A stretch of 64,000 nucleotides of DNA. Source: a virus. Below are positions 22,601 to 61,926 of the stretch, piece after piece. A program made the translations under genes and the position numbers. The notes beneath the pieces were generated by a model, which saw nothing but the letters and a program-made list of their open reading frames with translations, was not told the origin of the DNA and did not search any database. Positions within the stretch are counted from its first letter, which is position 1. Every line of letters starts with the position of its first letter. The DNA lies in the IMG/VR virus record IMGVR_UViG_3300031344_000002, positions 62,001 through 126,000 of that record, one strand, 5' to 3'.

Positions 22601-25600
22601 AAGAAGGTAGTGGTTATTGTTGGAAAAAAATACCTGATGTTGAATTTAATGAAAGATATATTAATATAAATAAAATAAGTTCAGACCCTAATGATTATGA
22701 AAAATATATAATTAATGAAAATTATAATAAAAAAATTAATGAACAATCAATTAATGAAACAAATTTACCGCATAATAAAACTTTTTGGGCATGGGTGTCA
22801 CCAGATAATAAATTCACTGAAGTATCTAAACTTCAACATGCAGGATTTATTGAAGGAAAATATCCTGAACTATCATATGATTTAGATGCGTTATTTTATC
22901 AAGCATTTAGAGAAGGTTGGGTACGAGTAATTTATGAATATAACTCAGACAGATTTATGGGTACTTTATCTATGAATGGATTTGATAAAGAAAGAGTTAA
23001 ATCAGTATTTAAGGACATGTTTTTTGATTTAATTAAATATGGAAATAATATAATTTATTTAGATTATGAAGTTGGTGGTAATGCTGATATAATAAGAACA
23101 GGTAATGCGGAAGGAAAAGCAAAATTGGTGAATTATGTAAATGAACAATCAATTAAAGATTTTGAAAAACAAATTGAAAAAGATAATAAAGATGATAAAT
23201 TAGATAAACTTCTTTTATTTGAAGAAGATGACTATAAAGTATATGCAGTTAATGGTAAATATGTAAGAAGTAAAAATCCGGGACTGAATTTTGATGAATG
23301 GGTTGATGGCGGTCATCATTATGTTGATTTAGACCTACCAAAAAAAGAACAAAAATACGCTAAACATATTCCAGAAGATGAAATTTGGGTTGATGATGTA
23401 TTCATTATAAAACCTGATGATTTAGGCGCAATATTATTACATGAAACACTTGAAAGACATTTAATGAAATACTATGGTTTGAAATATAGTAATGATGGCG
23501 AAGGTAAAGATGGTGCTCATGAAATTGCAAATAAAGCAGAAGTAGAATTTAGAGAAAGAGTAAAAAATGGTTTTGGTCGTGATGTTAGTGAAGAAATTTA
23601 TACTAAATTTGTAAAAAATTATACAAAGAAACATCCAAAAAAGAAATTAAAAATTAATGAAGAAAATTATGTTGGAAAAGCATATAGAGTGAATTCTAAT
23701 TTCATTCAATCTAAAGGAACTACTGCAGGTGATGTTGTTAGATTTGAAATGAAAGAATTAGGTAATGTTGATGATTTTAATATAACTCCTGAAAAATTAA
23801 AAGAACTTGATAAATATCCAGCTAAAGATATTGTCTGGATTACAAAAACATTTGAGGATGCAAAAAGATATTCTAATGAAGATGACTTTTCAGATATCGA
23901 TGAATTTGATATTAATAATGGCGAAATTATTGGTGAAGATGGTGATGGTGGATATCTTATTTTAATTAAAAAACATAATTTAAATGAATCAATAATGATT
24001 GAAGATGATTCTCAATCAAATAATAAAATTACTGGTTTTGTAAATAATTTAAAACAAAAACCATTTATTCAATCACTTATAAATGGTTTAAAATCAGATG
24101 TTTATGTTGTTGGAGGGGCTGTTCGTGACCTTATTCTTAATAAACCAAACAAAGATATTGATTTGGTTGTAGGAAAAGTACCTATAGATACATTAATTTC
24201 ACAATTACAAAAATTTGGTAAAGTTGATGTTGTTGGTAAATCATTTGGTGTTATTAAATTTATTGATAAAGATGGTACTGACTATGATATAGCATTACCA
24301 AGGGTTGATAGAAAAAATGACGAAGGTGGTTATCGTGGCTTTGATGTTCAAAGTGATGAAAATCTCCCAATTGAAGATGAACTTATTAGAAGAGATGCAC
24401 GTTTCAATGCTATGGCAATTAATATCAATACTGGTAAATTTATTGACCCTTTAGGTGGATTAGATGATATTAAAAAGAAACAAATATCTGCAGCAAATCC
24501 TGATGCGTTTTCAGACGACCCATTAAGAGCATTAAGATTTTGTTCGTTTGCTAGTCGTTTTGGTTTCACAATTGAACCACAAACGATGCAAATGATTAAA
24601 GATAATGCGAGTAGAATTAAAGAAATTCCGCCAGAAAGAATATTAATTGAATTTGATAAAATTTTAAAAAAAGGCGACAAACGTATTGGTATACAACTGC
24701 TTAAAGACACTGGTTTATTTCAACAAATTTTTAATTTTGATTTAAAACAATCAACAATTGATAGAAGTCCATTTGAAGAAGTTAAAACAATGGGTGAGTT
24801 TATTTATTTATTAACACGATTATTACCAAATCCTGCAGAATTTTATAAAAATAATTTAAAAGGTGATATTGATACTTATAAGGAAATTAAAGCACTTGAA
24901 ATGGCATTTGATAGTGGTGAAGCAACTAATTTAATTGAAGCACGAACAGTTGCGCATAATATGTATGTAACATCACCACAATCACTTCAAAGCCAAATAA
25001 TACCTAGTGTAATTGAAACCGCAGCACAAGAATTATTACAAGGCAAATATCCAAAAGCAGTTGGTGAACTAGCAATTAATGGCAATGATTTAATTCAATT
25101 TGGATTAAAAGGTAAAGAGATTGGTGATATGTTAAAATCATTATTGTTAAAGGTATATTCAAATAATGTTAGGAATAATCGAGATGATTTATTAAATTTG
25201 ACAAGTCAAAAAAATAAATCAATAAAACAAGAAGGTGTTGCAGATAAATATGCAGAAAAAACTTTTAATGTTCCTGACTCAAATACTGCAATGGATGTTA
25301 AAGCAATGGGTGGTATAGAAAAAAATAAAGAAAAACCATATGCAATTAGTGAAGAGGGTGATTTATTTTTTAAGAACCCAAAATCATTAACAAATTTTGA
25401 TAAAAATGTTAGGGCAATTGCTGATAGTGATGGAAACTTATTTGTTGCACAAGTAAATGGTAATTTTCTTCATGGAGATATTGCAAGAACATTAGGAATT
25501 GTTGGATGGATATATGAAAATAATGATTATGTGTTGTTACATAGAGCAGGAAACACAAATAATTTTGGATTGAGTGATAGTAATTATAATGATATTAGAA

Positions 25601-50907: not shown

Positions 50908-50947
50908 AATTTGCCATAAATCCTTTGAATTATGGCAAATTTTTTTT
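50908..50947 (+). terminator. Intrinsic terminator abutting primase promoter
   Basis: AATTTGCCATAA (50908-50919) pairs perfectly with TTATGGCAAATT (50930-50941) around a ten-base loop, followed by a run of T. It ends the metallophosphoesterase unit and overlaps the primase promoter region. Confidence 0.85.
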
Positions 50948-50954
50948 ATATTTG
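50925..50954 (+). promoter_or_regulatory. Host-type promoter of primase/sigma unit
   Basis: TTG at 50925-50927 and TATATTTG at 50947-50954, spaced by 19 bases. The start codon at 50960 is only six bases after the TTTG, where transcription normally starts in Bacteroidetes, so the mRNA is likely leaderless. Confidence 0.7.
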
Positions 50955-50959
50955 CATCT

Positions 50960-52024
50960 ATGAATAATTATCGTGGTCAAGAATTTTATAGTATAATTCA
51001 AAATATATTCGGTGACGTTCATGGAACTGGACCACAATTTCAGGTAGAATGTCCTATCTGTCAAGATAATAAATTTAATCTTGAAATAAATACGGCAAAA
51101 GGTAAGGGCATATTTAAATGTTGGTCGTGCCAGTCACCACCCTTCAGTGGTTCACTTTCTAAACTAATTTATTTATACGGGTCCAAATCAGACTATGCAC
51201 TCTATAAGTCATATGCAAGTATTTATAGTAATTATTCATATGAAAATAATAATGATGAACAAGAATATGTACAGGTTAAACTTCCAAGTGAAATGATATT
51301 ATTTTCTAAAATTGAAGAAGGAAATCCTGAACATTTTGAAGCATATAATTATCTTATTAATGAAAGAAAAATAAGTCGAGAACTTTTTTTAAAATATCGG
51401 TTTGGTTTTTGTACCACTGGAAAATATGCCAAGAGAATAATAGTCCCGTCTTATGATATGACTGGTGATGTGAATTATTTTATTTCACGTAGTTATGATT
51501 CAAAAGAAAAAAGAAAATATTTAAATCCTGTTGCAGATAAAAATAAAATCATTTTTAATGAAGGTTTTATTAATTGGGACTCAACCGTTTTTTTATGTGA
51601 AGGTGTTTTTGATGCATTTTCATTACCCAATGCAATTCCATTATTAGGAAAAACATTATCAATAACACTTTTTAATAAACTAAATGAATTAAAACCAAAT
51701 ATAATTGTTTTATTAGACCCTGACGCAATAAAAAATGCAATAAATTTATATCAAACATTACATACTATTTATGTTGGTTGTGAAGATAGAATTAGAATTG
51801 TCGAATTACCAATAAAAGAAGATATCGATAGACTTAGAAAAGATTATGGAATTGAAAAAGTAATTGAAACGCTGTATACTGCAAGAAAACTAAATAATAA
51901 TGATTGTTTTATAAATAAATTAACTAAACCTTATGATAATAGCAGTAGAGCAGGAAAAGGAAGATATGATTCTTATTCAAAATACTTTGAATGGAAATCC
52001 ACAAGCGCAAGAAAAACTATATAA
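50960..52024 (+). CDS. DNA primase, DnaG/gp61-like
   Basis: A 354-residue protein. The zinc-binding domain is CPIC (C31, C34) and CWSC (C54, C57). The TOPRIM domain contains LCEGVFDAF near residue 213 and LLDPDA near 253. This is the DnaG-type layout, small like T4 gp61 (342). It should prime lagging-strand synthesis. It starts with a probably leaderless mRNA and overlaps the sigma-like gene at its 3' end. Confidence 0.85.
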   Translation: MNNYRGQEFYSIIQNIFGDVHGTGPQFQVECPICQDNKFNLEINTAKGKGIFKCWSCQSPPFSGSLSKLIYLYGSKSDYALYKSYASIYSNYSYENNNDEQEYVQVKLPSEMILFSKIEEGNPEHFEAYNYLINERKISRELFLKYRFGFCTTGKYAKRIIVPSYDMTGDVNYFISRSYDSKEKRKYLNPVADKNKIIFNEGFINWDSTVFLCEGVFDAFSLPNAIPLLGKTLSITLFNKLNELKPNIIVLLDPDAIKNAINLYQTLHTIYVGCEDRIRIVELPIKEDIDRLRKDYGIEKVIETLYTARKLNNNDCFINKLTKPYDNSSRAGKGRYDSYSKYFEWKSTSARKTI

Positions 52025-52544
52025 TAAATATAAAAAACTTATTATGAATTTCTTAAAAGCTAAATATTCACAAAGTGATATTGATGATGTATCAGAAATA
52101 ATGATTAAAATTTTTATAAATTTAAAATTGTTCGATAATACAAAATCAAAATTTAGCTCATGGGTATTTAGCATTGCTAAAAATTATATGATAGATAAAT
52201 GGCGTAGCAATGCCACATTTAGTGCTGAAAATATTAATTATATAACAACAAATGATTGTATATCTACATCAAATAATAGTAATTATATTACATCAACAAA
52301 TATAAATAATCTCGAATTTATTACAAATTATAACATGGAATTTGAGAATAATAACTCAATAAATTATATTTCAAAACAATTATCACCTGAAGAATTTACT
52401 TTACTTGATATGAAATATGTTCAGGGATATGATTATTGTGAAATTGGAAAAGAATTTAATGTTTCAAGTTCTACAATTAGCAATAGAGTCAATTATATTA
52501 AAACTAAACTCAAAAAAAACAATCCAGAGATAATTTATGATTAA
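51966..52544 (+). CDS. Sigma-70 family factor (ECF-like), phage-encoded
   Basis: Start placed at ATG 51966, where the conserved pattern begins (MILIQNTLNGNPQAQEKLYNKY); ATG 51933 is possible. The 192-residue protein has region 2 (FLKAKYSQSDIDDVSEIMIKIF, FSSWVFSIAKNYMIDKWR) and region 4 (LSPEEFTLLDMKYVQGYDYCEIGKEFNVSSSTISNRV), the two-domain layout of ECF sigma factors. The gene overlaps the primase by 59 bases. In T4 the late sigma gp55 is also a reduced sigma-70 relative and its gene lies near genes 46 and 47, as here. It could direct RNA polymerase to the GTATTTATA motif. Confidence 0.75.
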   Translation: MILIQNTLNGNPQAQEKLYNKYKKLIMNFLKAKYSQSDIDDVSEIMIKIFINLKLFDNTKSKFSSWVFSIAKNYMIDKWRSNATFSAENINYITTNDCISTSNNSNYITSTNINNLEFITNYNMEFENNNSINYISKQLSPEEFTLLDMKYVQGYDYCEIGKEFNVSSSTISNRVNYIKTKLKKNNPEIIYD

Positions 52545-52549
52545 ATCAA

Positions 52550-52558
52550 GTATTTATA
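52550..52558 (+). promoter_or_regulatory. GTATTTATA phage promoter motif
   Basis: GTATTTATAAAAAATAT, ending 17 bases before the ATG at 52575. Confidence 0.65.
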
Positions 52559-52574
52559 AAAAATATTTGATATC

Positions 52575-53939
52575 ATGAAAAGAGGTATTTTTGAGTATGT
52601 TAATTTACAAAAGCAAAATCTTACCAGTAAAGAAGGTAAACCATATGTGAGATATATTGTAGTTTCTGATATAAATCTTGAAACAAAAAAAGTAAAAGAA
52701 AAATTAGCATCACTTGGTTTTCGATGGAATGGCAAAGAATGGTGGATATTTGGAAGTAATTTAACGCAAGAAATTCTTAATGCTTTAAAATCAATCAATG
52801 CTGAATTAGAAACACAAGGTGGTCAAACAGGTAATCTTCAGGATTTTCTTACACAATTAGAAAATCTAAAATCGGAAGTACAAAAATCAAATATGCCATC
52901 TAAAACAAAATCTGAACTCGAAACAAAAATTGAACAATATGTTGAAGATATTGCAAATGCAACTGATGAAAAAGCTGCTTCTGCTGAATTTCAAAAATTT
53001 TTAGACTTTTCACATAAATTTCATAATTATAGTTTTAGCAATATTATGTTAATCTATTTACAGGATTCAAAAGCATCTAAAGTTGCTGGTGAAGGTACTT
53101 GGAATAGAAAATTTAAAAGGCAAGTTATTGATAAAACAAAAGCAATTACTATTTGGTGTGGTAATAAATTTTATAAAAAATCTGATGGTAAATTAGCACA
53201 ATATACATTAGACCAACAAAAAAAAGATAGTGAATACATTAAAAAAGTTGAAGCTGGCGAAGCACCAACGAATAAAAATGAATTAGATGCAATTAAATCA
53301 AGAAAACAAATAGTTCATATAAAATACGACCCATGTATTGTTTATGATATTACAAATACATCTGGTGAACCAGTTCCAGAAGAACTAAATTGGAAAGGTG
53401 CTTATGATGACCGTGCAGATGCAAAAGCATTATTTATAATTTCTAAAAAAAGTCTTGAAAATATGGGAATTAAAGTAACTCAAAATCCTTCAAGTGGTGG
53501 TGAGGGTGGTTGGAGTAGTAAAGGTCATATAAATGTTAGTCAAGATGCAACAGGTAGTGGTGCAGCATCAACTATTTTTCATGAATGGGCACATGATTTA
53601 TTACATCATGAAGGTGGAAAATTTTATGATAAAGCAATGGATTATTTTCAAAAGAAAGGTGATTTAAATTATTCTGAAGTAAAACAAATAAGAGAAATTC
53701 AAGCAGAAACAATATCTGCAGTTCTTTGTAGATATTATGGATTACCTTCAGAGCATCATCCCACATATATGGCATTATGGCAAGCACAAGGTAAATTAAG
53801 CAGTAAACAATTAATAAAAGAAAATATTTCAACTGTTACTGATGTAAGCAATTTTATTATACATCAAGTTGATATTAATAGGGATGAATTTGATAAAGCA
53901 AGAGTGGAAATGCAACAACAAGTGCAACCAGAACAATAA
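52575..53939 (+). CDS. ArdC-like antirestriction/metallopeptidase protein
   Basis: A 454-residue protein. Residues about 1-60 (VKEKLASLGFRWNGKEWWIFG) resemble the HARP-like segment at the start of the helicase. Residues about 95-210 look like the ArdC N-terminal ssDNA-binding domain (FLDFSHKFHNYSFSNIMLIYLQ, ITIWCGNKFYKK). The peptidase domain has HEWAH (H336, E337, H340) and a downstream Glu near 377 (EIQAETISAVLCRYYG), the metal ligands of M78/ArdC-type enzymes. ArdC proteins protect incoming DNA from restriction. The gene has its own GTATTTATA promoter, so it may be made late and packaged. Confidence 0.7.
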   Translation: MKRGIFEYVNLQKQNLTSKEGKPYVRYIVVSDINLETKKVKEKLASLGFRWNGKEWWIFGSNLTQEILNALKSINAELETQGGQTGNLQDFLTQLENLKSEVQKSNMPSKTKSELETKIEQYVEDIANATDEKAASAEFQKFLDFSHKFHNYSFSNIMLIYLQDSKASKVAGEGTWNRKFKRQVIDKTKAITIWCGNKFYKKSDGKLAQYTLDQQKKDSEYIKKVEAGEAPTNKNELDAIKSRKQIVHIKYDPCIVYDITNTSGEPVPEELNWKGAYDDRADAKALFIISKKSLENMGIKVTQNPSSGGEGGWSSKGHINVSQDATGSGAASTIFHEWAHDLLHHEGGKFYDKAMDYFQKKGDLNYSEVKQIREIQAETISAVLCRYYGLPSEHHPTYMALWQAQGKLSSKQLIKENISTVTDVSNFIIHQVDINRDEFDKARVEMQQQVQPEQ

Positions 53940-54055: not shown

Positions 54056-57000
54056 ATGATTCAAAAAATTGCTCATTTAAGCGACATTCATATCCGCAAA
54101 ACTCCTACAAGAAATGAAGAATATACAAAAGTCTTTGAAAATTTAATAAAATCACTAACTGAAAATAAACCTGATAGAATTGCCATTGTTGGTGACTTAG
54201 TGCATGATTATCTTGATTTACAAGGTGAACAACTAATTATGGCAAATAAATTTTTAAATGATTTGGCTGCAATAGCACCAGTAAGAATAACTAGAGGTAA
54301 TCACGATTGTCGTAAAAAGAATTTAAAACGTGTCGATAGTATCGAAGCCATAGTAAAAACATTAAATAATCCAAATGTTATTTATTATGATAAAACAGGT
54401 TTTTATGATGATGAAAATATAACGTGGGTAGTTTGGCATCATGGTGATAATAAAAATAATCCTTGGAAAATCAAGCAAGGTAAACAAATTGAAATTGATA
54501 GGAAAAGTAATAAGAGAATTTATATTGACCTTTTTCATGACCCAATAATTGGTTGTAAATCTACGACTGGTTTTGAAATGAAAAGTAAATCATATTATAA
54601 AATTACAGATTTTAAAGGCGATTTTTCGATGTTTGGTGATATTCATTGTATGCAATTTTTAGATAAAAATAAAACTAAAGTATATTCAGGAAGTCTTTTG
54701 GCACAAGATGTTACAGAGGGAGATTCTTCCTTTCATGGATATTTATTATGGGATGTTATAAATAAAACAGCACAAGAAATTTCAATACATAATGATTATT
54801 CGTTTAAAAATATAAAAATTACGCCATATACTGATTTTGATAATTTGGATTTCGAAATTGAAAATCCAACTAAATATATGAAAGTTAGATTTATTTGGGG
54901 TACTTTACCACAAACACGTACAAAAGAGAATGAAAGAAAGATAATTGAATATTTAAAATCTAAATATAAAAATATTATTATTTCACATAAAAATGAATTT
55001 CTTGAAAATGAAAAAATTGATGTAAATGAAAGCATTACTCTGCAGAATATAACGGATAAAGCAGTACAACAAGAAATATTTAAAGAATATTTAACAAAAA
55101 TTGGTGCTGATGAACAATTAATAACCGATGTGTTTGCACTAGATGAAGAAATCCTCAATGAAATAGAAATAAATATAGACCAAAGTATTGAATGGGATAT
55201 AATTAAATTTGGTGGTAAAAATTTTATGTCATATGAAACAATGGATATTGATTGGCGTAATATGGATGGTTTGTTTCAAATAACTGGAATAAATACCGCA
55301 GGTAAAACAACAATTATGAAAATTTTATCATATGTTTTATTTGGTAAAACTTTAGAAACAGAAACTCGCATGAAATATGGTGATATGCGTTTTGTTAATA
55401 ATAGGAATAATGCAAGTTTTTGTGAAGCCTATCTTGTAATTGAAGCTAATGGTGAATATTTTGGAATTAAAAAGAAAACGGAAATTATAAAAAATAAAAG
55501 TGGTGAAATTACTAGTACACCGACCACATTAAATTATTATATACTTGCAACTCCTGATGATGAAATGAATGATGAAACATCAATAGGAAAACTTGACGAA
55601 GACCGTAGAATAAAAACTCAAAAGAAATTTGAAGCAATTATTGGTACATATGATAATTTTATGCGTATTGTTATGACAACTAGTGATACACTTAATAGAA
55701 TATTATCAAATGATATGTCTACATTTATTGACAGTTTACTTTATGATAGCGGATTGGATATTTTTGACAAAAAACTTGAAGGTTTTAAAATATATCAAAA
55801 AAGAGTAAATGAAAAACCAAGAGTTACTTGTAATATTGAATTTACTAATGTGGAAAATGCAAGATTACAACAAGAAATTGTTGCACTTGAAGGAGAAATA
55901 ACTCAAATAGAAACAGTGAAACTTCCTGATATTCAAAATCGAATTGAAATTGGTAGAAAATATGTAGAAGACTTATCAAAGAAATTATATAAAATAGACT
56001 CAGAAATTTACAATCTGGACGTAGATAATGCACGTGAGGATATAAGTGCCAACAAAAAGAATATTGTTGAAATAAAGGCACAAGAAATGATTTTAAAACA
56101 AAGTATCATACCATTGAAAGAAACATATGATATTGAAAGACTAAAAATTCTTCTTGAAAAAAAAGAATTTCATAAAACTAATGAATATAATAAAAAATTA
56201 GACATTAAAAATCTTGAACGGCTAAAATCCGAAGAAGAACATAAAATTGAAATAATTAATGGCGATATTTTTAAATTAAAACAAGATGGTGTTAAATTAA
56301 AAAAAGAAATTACTGATTTAAAAAATAGTAAAATCTGTAGTCAATGTGGACAAGTTATTGAAAAACAAGAACATAAAGACCATATTGAAAAAACGGTTAA
56401 AGAAAAAGAAAAAGAAATGTATATTATTGCAGATAAAATTAATGTAAAACAAACTGTTGGTATACAAGAACATCAAATAATAATCAATGCAAAAGCTAAT
56501 GAAATTAAAAAAATAAATGAAAGTATTAGGCAATCTGCATTAGAAATGGAAGAAATTCTTAAAGAAATTGGAACACTTACTAATGAAAAAAATGATGTCG
56601 AAAAACGTAAGGAATTACAAATTGAATTAGACCAAATTCCAATAAAAATTCAAAATGAAGAACTAAAAATTAATATTCTTGAACAAAAGATAACAAGTCA
56701 TGAAAATAGTTTACTTCAAATTGAAGAAAATAAAAAGATTGAAAAAGGTATTGCTACAGCTAAATTAAAATTAGGTGAACTTGAAATTGAAAAAACCGAT
56801 GAGAATGAAAATGTATATATTAGAAAAACAAATATTGGTGAAAAACAACTAAAGACTAAAAATAATGAAATACTTATTACTGAATTCAAAACACAAGAAT
56901 ATCGTGATACTGTTATGAATCTTTATAAAAAATGTGTTCATCGTGATGGTATACCAAGGCAAATGTTAAGTAATTATATTATACCAAAAATTAATTTGGC

Positions 57001-57388
57001 TTTGGAAGAAGCATTATCTGTTGCACAATTCAAAGTATGGCTTGATACTGATGATTTAAGACCAAAATTGGTATATGATTGTAGACCAACAGCAATCATT
57101 GATTGTATTAGTGCAAGTGGTAAAGAAAGAACTTTTTCAAGTATTGTATTAAAATCTGCATTAAATCAAATTAATATAAAAGCTAAACCGACAATGTTTT
57201 TACTTGATGAAGTTATGGGTAAATTGGATGAAGAAGGTAGTGTTGAAGAATTTATTGAAATATTACAAATAATTAAAAAGAATATGAAAAAAATGTTAGT
57301 TATTGAACAAAGAATAGATATTAATCCAGATTATTTAATTAATGTACAATTAAATGAAGATGGAATTTCATCACTTACATTAGAATAA
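54056..57388 (+). CDS. Mre11-Rad50 (gp47-gp46) single-chain fusion
   Basis: A 1110-residue protein that joins two recombination proteins usually made separately. Residues 1-370 are a nuclease of the Mre11/SbcD/gp47 type (LSDIHIRK with D10 and H12, VGDLVHD, RGNHDCRKK, FGDIHCMQF). Residues 385-1110 are Rad50/SbcC/gp46-like: Walker A GINTAGKTT (411-419), long coiled coil, zinc hook CSQC (C761, C764), signature ASGKERT near 1020, and Walker B FLLDEVMG (D1051, E1052). In T4 the gp46/47 pair resects DNA ends for recombination-dependent replication and degrades host DNA. The start is the ATG at 54056; an ATG at 54052 is in another frame. Confidence 0.88.
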   Translation: MIQKIAHLSDIHIRKTPTRNEEYTKVFENLIKSLTENKPDRIAIVGDLVHDYLDLQGEQLIMANKFLNDLAAIAPVRITRGNHDCRKKNLKRVDSIEAIVKTLNNPNVIYYDKTGFYDDENITWVVWHHGDNKNNPWKIKQGKQIEIDRKSNKRIYIDLFHDPIIGCKSTTGFEMKSKSYYKITDFKGDFSMFGDIHCMQFLDKNKTKVYSGSLLAQDVTEGDSSFHGYLLWDVINKTAQEISIHNDYSFKNIKITPYTDFDNLDFEIENPTKYMKVRFIWGTLPQTRTKENERKIIEYLKSKYKNIIISHKNEFLENEKIDVNESITLQNITDKAVQQEIFKEYLTKIGADEQLITDVFALDEEILNEIEINIDQSIEWDIIKFGGKNFMSYETMDIDWRNMDGLFQITGINTAGKTTIMKILSYVLFGKTLETETRMKYGDMRFVNNRNNASFCEAYLVIEANGEYFGIKKKTEIIKNKSGEITSTPTTLNYYILATPDDEMNDETSIGKLDEDRRIKTQKKFEAIIGTYDNFMRIVMTTSDTLNRILSNDMSTFIDSLLYDSGLDIFDKKLEGFKIYQKRVNEKPRVTCNIEFTNVENARLQQEIVALEGEITQIETVKLPDIQNRIEIGRKYVEDLSKKLYKIDSEIYNLDVDNAREDISANKKNIVEIKAQEMILKQSIIPLKETYDIERLKILLEKKEFHKTNEYNKKLDIKNLERLKSEEEHKIEIINGDIFKLKQDGVKLKKEITDLKNSKICSQCGQVIEKQEHKDHIEKTVKEKEKEMYIIADKINVKQTVGIQEHQIIINAKANEIKKINESIRQSALEMEEILKEIGTLTNEKNDVEKRKELQIELDQIPIKIQNEELKINILEQKITSHENSLLQIEENKKIEKGIATAKLKLGELEIEKTDENENVYIRKTNIGEKQLKTKNNEILITEFKTQEYRDTVMNLYKKCVHRDGIPRQMLSNYIIPKINLALEEALSVAQFKVWLDTDDLRPKLVYDCRPTAIIDCISASGKERTFSSIVLKSALNQINIKAKPTMFLLDEVMGKLDEEGSVEEFIEILQIIKKNMKKMLVIEQRIDINPDYLINVQLNEDGISSLTLE

Positions 57389-61917: not shown

Positions 61918-61926
61918 GTATTTATA
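61918..61926 (+). promoter_or_regulatory. GTATTTATA phage promoter motif
   Basis: GTATTTATACTAAAAAA, ending 18 bases before the ATG at 61944. Confidence 0.65.

Follow-up and report, generated by a model that had tools for sequence, protein, structure and literature searches.

To our knowledge, few phage sigma factors have mapped promoters. SaPh711_gp47 of phage 7-11, in which region 4 is present, reads the bipartite sequence GTAAtg-(16)-aCTA, and gp36 of phiEco32, which is devoid of region 4, recognizes a single element (PMC8948821). The late promoter of T4 is TATAAATA, located at -13 to -6 (PMC1524935). SigW promoters correspond to TGAAAC-N16,17-CGTA(T) (PMC2375139), and the -35 of ECF sigma factors harbours AAC or AACA (PMC8791391). 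In flavobacteria, the TAnnTTTG box is the sigma-A signal, and CGT-type ECF promoters also exist in these hosts (PMC9723704).

We analysed a phage sigma factor, hereafter called S1, encoded in a 64,000-nucleotide stretch of DNA (the window) that corresponds to positions 62001-126000 of the 218,381-base IMG/VR virus record IMGVR_UViG_3300031344_000002. The hosts of this large phage are Bacteroidota-type bacteria. No near DNA relative was found among 50,697 phage records, and the named phages include no close relatives, by DNA or by S1 protein. A first scan yielded S1 relatives at 47-70% identity in 18 viral contigs, and a profile search raised their number to 53, on contigs of up to 372 kb. Because the largest S1-bearing relatives are ~300-370 kb long, the record, at 218 kb, may represent only part of a genome. 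The sigma domains and both promoter classes described below, with their positions, conservation and co-occurrence, were computed. The features of the S1 region are as follows:

50924..50954, plus strand: Bacteroidota host-type promoter of the primase-S1 operon, TTTG-N-TATATTTG (sequence TTTGAATTATGGCAAATTTTTTTTATATTTG)
50960..52024, plus strand: DnaG-like primase, opening the operon and overlapping S1 (phrog_47 DNA primase, 2.1e-35)
51933..52544, plus strand: S1, ECF-type sigma factor of 203 aa (Pfam, NCBIfam, profile and Foldseek matches)
51939..52205, plus strand: sigma region 2 of S1, residues 3-91 (AlphaFold2, pLDDT of the block mostly 75-92)
52212..52349, plus strand: Asn/Ser/Thr-rich, disordered linker of S1, residues 94-139 (pLDDT < 50 for residues 94-142)
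52350..52520, plus strand: sigma region 4 of S1, residues 140-196 (alignment of relatives and AlphaFold2 model)
52550..52558, plus strand: GTATTTATA element directly past S1, serving the next gene (52575), ~17 nt before its ATG
54056..57388, plus strand: Mre11-Rad50 fusion near S1, joining SbcD and SbcC in a single chain (Metallophos 6e-11, AAA_23 6.2e-8)
61918..61926, plus strand: example of a GTATTTATA late-type promoter

The initial annotation had described a two-region, ECF-like sigma factor at 51966-52544, which our analyses bear out. S1 matches Sigma70_r2 (4.5e-10) and Sigma70_r4 (6.8e-7), both exceeding the Pfam cut-offs, and the NCBIfam sigma70-ECF entry at 78.9 bits (cut-off 42.9). 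SigW (5wuq) is its best profile match among solved full-length ECF sigmas (2e-9) and the top Foldseek match for the S1 model. That the ORF codes for a sigma factor is beyond reasonable doubt. Its start is probably the ATG at 51933, with the ATG at 51966 being internal, since relatives align from residues located there and the first helix of the model begins at residue 3. The AlphaFold2 model consists of two helical domains joined by the linker, whose length is hypervariable among relatives; the recognition helix of region 4 is near-invariant across the clade. More distant S1 proteins, at 28-29% identity, are found in G038 and G039. S1 harbours sigma-70 regions 2 and 4 only, without regions 1.1 or 3, as defines the ECF sigmas (group 4). 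It does not match phrog_234, the T4 gp55 late sigma family, from which it also departs by having a region 4 above the Pfam cut-off. A cognate anti-sigma gene is usually, if not universally, found beside an ECF sigma gene. None was recognised adjoining S1, which is flanked by the genes for the primase and for an ArdC/M78-like protein; this does not bar S1 from the ECF group, as many ECF sigmas are controlled otherwise.

As previously reported for this locus, S1 overlaps the primase gene (by 92 nt), and the host-type promoter ascribed to the operon was confirmed, the same type of promoter being kept in 11 of 17 relatives, ~1030 nt before S1. The gene order had also been likened to that of T4, where gene 55 lies near genes 46 and 47. 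The Mre11-Rad50 gene does lie near S1, but the parallel is superficial because S1 is an ECF sigma and not a gp55 homologue. The fusion protein is 1110 residues long, and its closest relative in a named phage (37% identity over 86%) is found in LR756501, a 735-kb uncultured phage. The gene that follows S1 (52575-53939) shows weak likeness to an ArdC N-domain and to IrrE/M78-like metallopeptidases, below cut-off, and its product is a possible anti-restriction protein.

The motif GTATTTATA is present at 18 sites in the window, all on the plus strand, versus 3.4 expected, and its earlier description as a genuine phage promoter motif is upheld. The sites start at the following positions:

6197, 9403, 16131, 18884, 19629, 26668, 29058, 34440, 39015 (plus strand)
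40686, 43752, 44759, 48058, 51219, 52550, 60162, 61661, 61918 (plus strand)

Two of them (40686 and 51219) are intragenic. Relatives are likewise enriched for this motif. Alignment of the sites revealed a single block that runs into A-rich sequence; the ATG is mostly 11-24 nt past the motif (most commonly 18-20 nt). Neither a -35 box nor a second upstream block was found in 16 sites, or in 104 pooled sites. Given this one block, with no second block upstream of it, GTATTTATA is a single -10-type element, unlike ECF promoters. We also considered that it might be a -35 box, and rejected this on account of its distance to the ATG. Its 'late' label would follow from the structural genes that it serves.

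Counting words in the regions before genes across this genome revealed a second class of promoters, with TTGTAACA and TTCGTATA emerging beside the late and host motifs. Eighteen TGTAAC..CGTA pairs are spaced by 16 nt, with at most one pair at any other spacing. The pattern TG[TC]AAC-N16-CGTA is found at 22 sites in the record, compared with 0.07 expected from simulated sequence, and A follows AAC in all 22 (TG[TC]AACA-N-CGTA). This class, hereafter class A, is described by:

Consensus: TTTG[TC]AACA[AT]TT-N-TTCGTATAAT, with 16 nt from TG[TC]AAC to CGTA
Core: TGTAAC-N16-CGTATAAT (equivalent to TGTAACA-N15-CGTATAAT)

All class A sites but one (21/22) are located 3-109 nt upstream of a gene. These genes are mostly small and of unassigned function; a Pfam search of eight of them returned just one weak HATPase match. 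The sites are mainly found at 151-178 kb (plus strand) and 193-217 kb (minus strand) of the record. The window contains none of them, so the initial annotation could not have seen them, and none precedes the operon of S1 itself. The class A pattern matches the SigW promoter and the -35 of ECF sigmas. TGTAAC-N16-CGTA is abundant in most S1-positive records, commonly with 7-58 sites, and eight named phages outside the clade have 0-2 sites. The exact pattern is missing from the S1-positive records G021, G025, G034, G036 and G039, and G035 has one site. The existence of a bipartite class whose -35 contains AAC and whose -10 contains CGT is highly significant, and we infer that S1 is its reader.

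Large relatives of this phage code for a second ECF sigma, S4, which is SigW-like. S4 was not found in this record, where S1 is the only ECF-type sigma detected. Two groups make up the bipartite promoters of G001: class A (TTTTTGTAACA..TTCGTATAAT), with dispersed sites, and class B (TG[TC]AAC[CT]..CGTATACT..ATAAACCAA, with the core TGTAAC-N16-CGTATACT), whose sites crowd around the S4 gene at 290-299 kb. In that region, CGTATACT followed by ATAAACCAA forms a dense array, mostly just before open frames. A degenerate site resembling class B lies upstream of the S4 gene itself, and the array has the look of a local ECF regulon under autoregulation. No subclass B cluster was found in our record. 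Two ECF-type promoter classes are present in G038 and in G039, and two subclasses in G025. Variants of the -35 or of the spacing occur in G025, G035, G036 and G039, with both subclasses shifted to N17 in G035. The recognition helix of S4 varies in genomes with a changed -35 or spacing (G025, G035 and G036). G036 has one class only, TGCAATA-N, despite a near-unchanged S1 helix. The idea of S4 as owner of the entire bipartite class, prompted by the invariance of the S1 helix, was dropped once two subclasses had been resolved in G001, G025, G038 and G039. In G039, sites such as agaccgtaaccttaagccagtactggaCGTATCAATA contain a perfect palindrome, CCAGTACTGG, between the -35 and the -10 of one class. 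This word is also enriched in G038, and it probably serves as the operator of some phage regulator.

The absence of a T4-like factor from the window, noted in the initial annotation, holds true; two further sigma-2-like proteins are encoded elsewhere in the record:

Record positions 149333-149650: S2, short gp55-like protein of 105 aa (PHROG late sigma match)
Record positions 24088-24969, minus strand: S3, sigma-2-like protein of 293 aa (weak profile similarity)

S2 matches the PHROG 'late sigma transcription factor' family (PHROG 234) at 2.3e-4 here and at up to 5.6e-9 in relatives. It is related to short proteins of PAU, MA9V-1 and pT24, none of which has the long C-terminal portion seen in T4 gp55. 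S3 proteins range from 240 to 293 residues across the lineage, with 73-91% identity in most relatives, and S3 relatives are encoded in 143 viral stretches. S3 is present in every motif-bearing large genome with enough sequence read for the search. Its profile similarity to sigma factors is weak, its fold model is poor, and a fold search gave no significant match. The S3 protein of this record has an insert of ~40 residues before the AFSY motif. No late-type promoter was found within 300 nt before S3 in 64 loci, and the front of the S3 operon in this record shows just a partial CGTATTAT box.

Flavobacterium phage immuto (NC_055915.1) possesses an S3 homologue, gp118 (1.4e-34), and no S1-like protein was found in its whole genome (best match 0.18). 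In this phage, [AC]TATTTATA precedes the terminase (terL), portal, tail sheath and tail tube genes, TATTTATA being the same 8-base late core as in the GTATTTATA lineage. As immuto uses [AC]TATTTATA without an S1-like protein, the late core is independent of S1, which is not present in every phage using the motif. In LR756508, which encodes an S3 homologue and lacks S1, the late motif is not visible. Immuto also harbours nine GTTGC-N17-CGTAT sites, which constitute a bipartite class, and no ECF sigma was found in its genome. This class may be read by a host ECF sigma or by an unrecognised phage protein, and host ECF sigmas could thus read CGTAT promoters.

We favour the reading that S1 recognizes the class A promoters, with a probability of about 0.7. 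It is the simplest match, because class A is the one bipartite class of the record and S1 the one ECF sigma found in it. The rule that relates region 4 to promoter architecture in phages 7-11 and phiEco32 (PMC8948821) likewise predicts that S1 reads class A, and that a protein without an ordinary region 4 reads GTATTTATA. Against it stand the S1-positive records without the exact pattern, among them G036 with its near-unchanged S1 helix, the shift of both G035 subclasses to N17, the CGTAT class of immuto and the lack of a class A site before the S1 operon; in addition, S4 might read class A as well in the genomes that have it. It is rather unlikely that class A is instead read by S4 or by a host ECF sigma, with S1 having another, unseen target. 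This would accord with the SigW-like nature of S4, whose helix changes along with the -35 in G025, G035 and G036, with the packing of subclass B (TG[TC]AAC[CT]...CGTATACT) around the G001 S4 gene and its degenerate copy upstream of that gene, with the possibility that our record is a fragment devoid of S4, with the CGTAT promoters of immuto, where no phage ECF was found, and with the CGT-type ECF promoters of flavobacterial hosts (PMC9723704). However, our record has class A but neither S4 nor the subclass B cluster, G038, in which exactly two ECF sigmas were found, has two distinct ECF-type classes, and no other conserved target of S1 was found.

The initial annotation had S1 reading GTATTTATA, which we consider very probably incorrect and have rejected as the best explanation. 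In such a scheme, S1 would be the late sigma, with region 2 reading the motif and region 4 engaged elsewhere, for instance with the polymerase flap. The conservation of S1, its region 4 helix and GTATTTATA across the clade, including G038 and G039, the seemingly early expression of S1 and the invisibility of the motif in LR756508, which has S3 but not S1, would all agree with it. It is nevertheless improbable: GTATTTATA comes without a -35 element, a matching, SigW-like bipartite class exists for S1, immuto, lacking any S1-like protein, uses TATTTATA, and region 2.4 of S1 differs in G038 and G039 (YMIDKWR versus TTINFKN), with an unchanged motif. That S2 reads GTATTTATA, as gp55 reads TATAAATA in T4, is quite improbable as well. 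In spite of its PHROG late sigma match, S2 escaped detection in G038, in G039 and in the portion of G035 that was sampled, all of which have the motif, and it occurs in PAU, MA9V-1, PTm1 and pT24 without GTATTTATA enrichment; its presence does not track the motif. The GTATTTATA promoters are more probably read by S3 than by S1, S3 being the better late-sigma candidate, with S2 less likely than S3.

With S1 assigned to class A, we infer a temporal order and the use of the host core polymerase. A host sigma-A-type promoter would drive primase-S1 expression early, judging from the promoter type, and S1 would then recruit the host core RNA polymerase to the 22 class A sites outside the window. Host core use is suggested by the lack of a phage RNA polymerase beta subunit: PF00562 had no match in 18 records, with the control positive in 14/14 genomes, and we rejected a phage multisubunit RNA polymerase on these grounds. 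S3 (less likely S2 or S1) would transcribe the late genes at GTATTTATA. More broadly, and tentatively, at a little short of even odds, widespread uncultivated Bacteroidota jumbo phages might possess a three-sigma cascade with separate promoter codes, in which S1 would be an ECF sigma with a dispersed bipartite regulon, S4 a second ECF sigma with an autoregulated local regulon, whose -35 coevolves with the recognition helix, and S3 the founder of a new late-sigma family for TATTTATA, shared with immuto.

This genome family represents a natural experiment, with several phage sigmas, several promoter classes and a -35 that changes alongside one recognition helix. Sigma-to-promoter matching in Bacteroidota jumbo phages becomes directly testable, with phage immuto and its Flavobacterium host as a cultivated entry point. 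These phages are also a source of candidate orthogonal promoters for use in bacteria with unusual signals of their own.

Among known systems, the sigma factor of Rhodothermus phage RM378 (NP_835731) is, like S1, a two-domain protein of ~200 residues and a weak match of the S1 profile (2.8e-6). It is too distant to be called an orthologue, and its phage shows neither GTATTTATA enrichment nor TGTAAC-N16-CGTA. The T4 gp55/gp33/gp45 system resembles ours in that GTATTTATA and TATAAATA are both short, single elements of the -10 type, with six of eight bases in common (PMC1524935), but S1 is not gp55-like and the likely reader of GTATTTATA is S3, less likely S2. S1 shares the two-domain, sigma-2/sigma-4 organization of the ECF family, SigW being the closest solved full-length member by profile and fold, and the TGTAAC-N16-CGTAT sequence assigned to S1 matches the SigW promoter (PMC2375139). 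Unlike SigW, S1 is phage-encoded, is part of a primase operon, has a long disordered Asn/Ser/Thr linker and depends on a host-type promoter instead of driving its own expression, with no anti-sigma gene recognised alongside. As for gp47 of phage 7-11, it is likewise a phage-encoded sigma with a region 4, the host core and a bipartite promoter with 16-nt spacing. However, the 7-11 sigma serves late genes and its -10 is different, whereas the bipartite class of the S1 lineage is located outside the structural region, which the single-element class serves.
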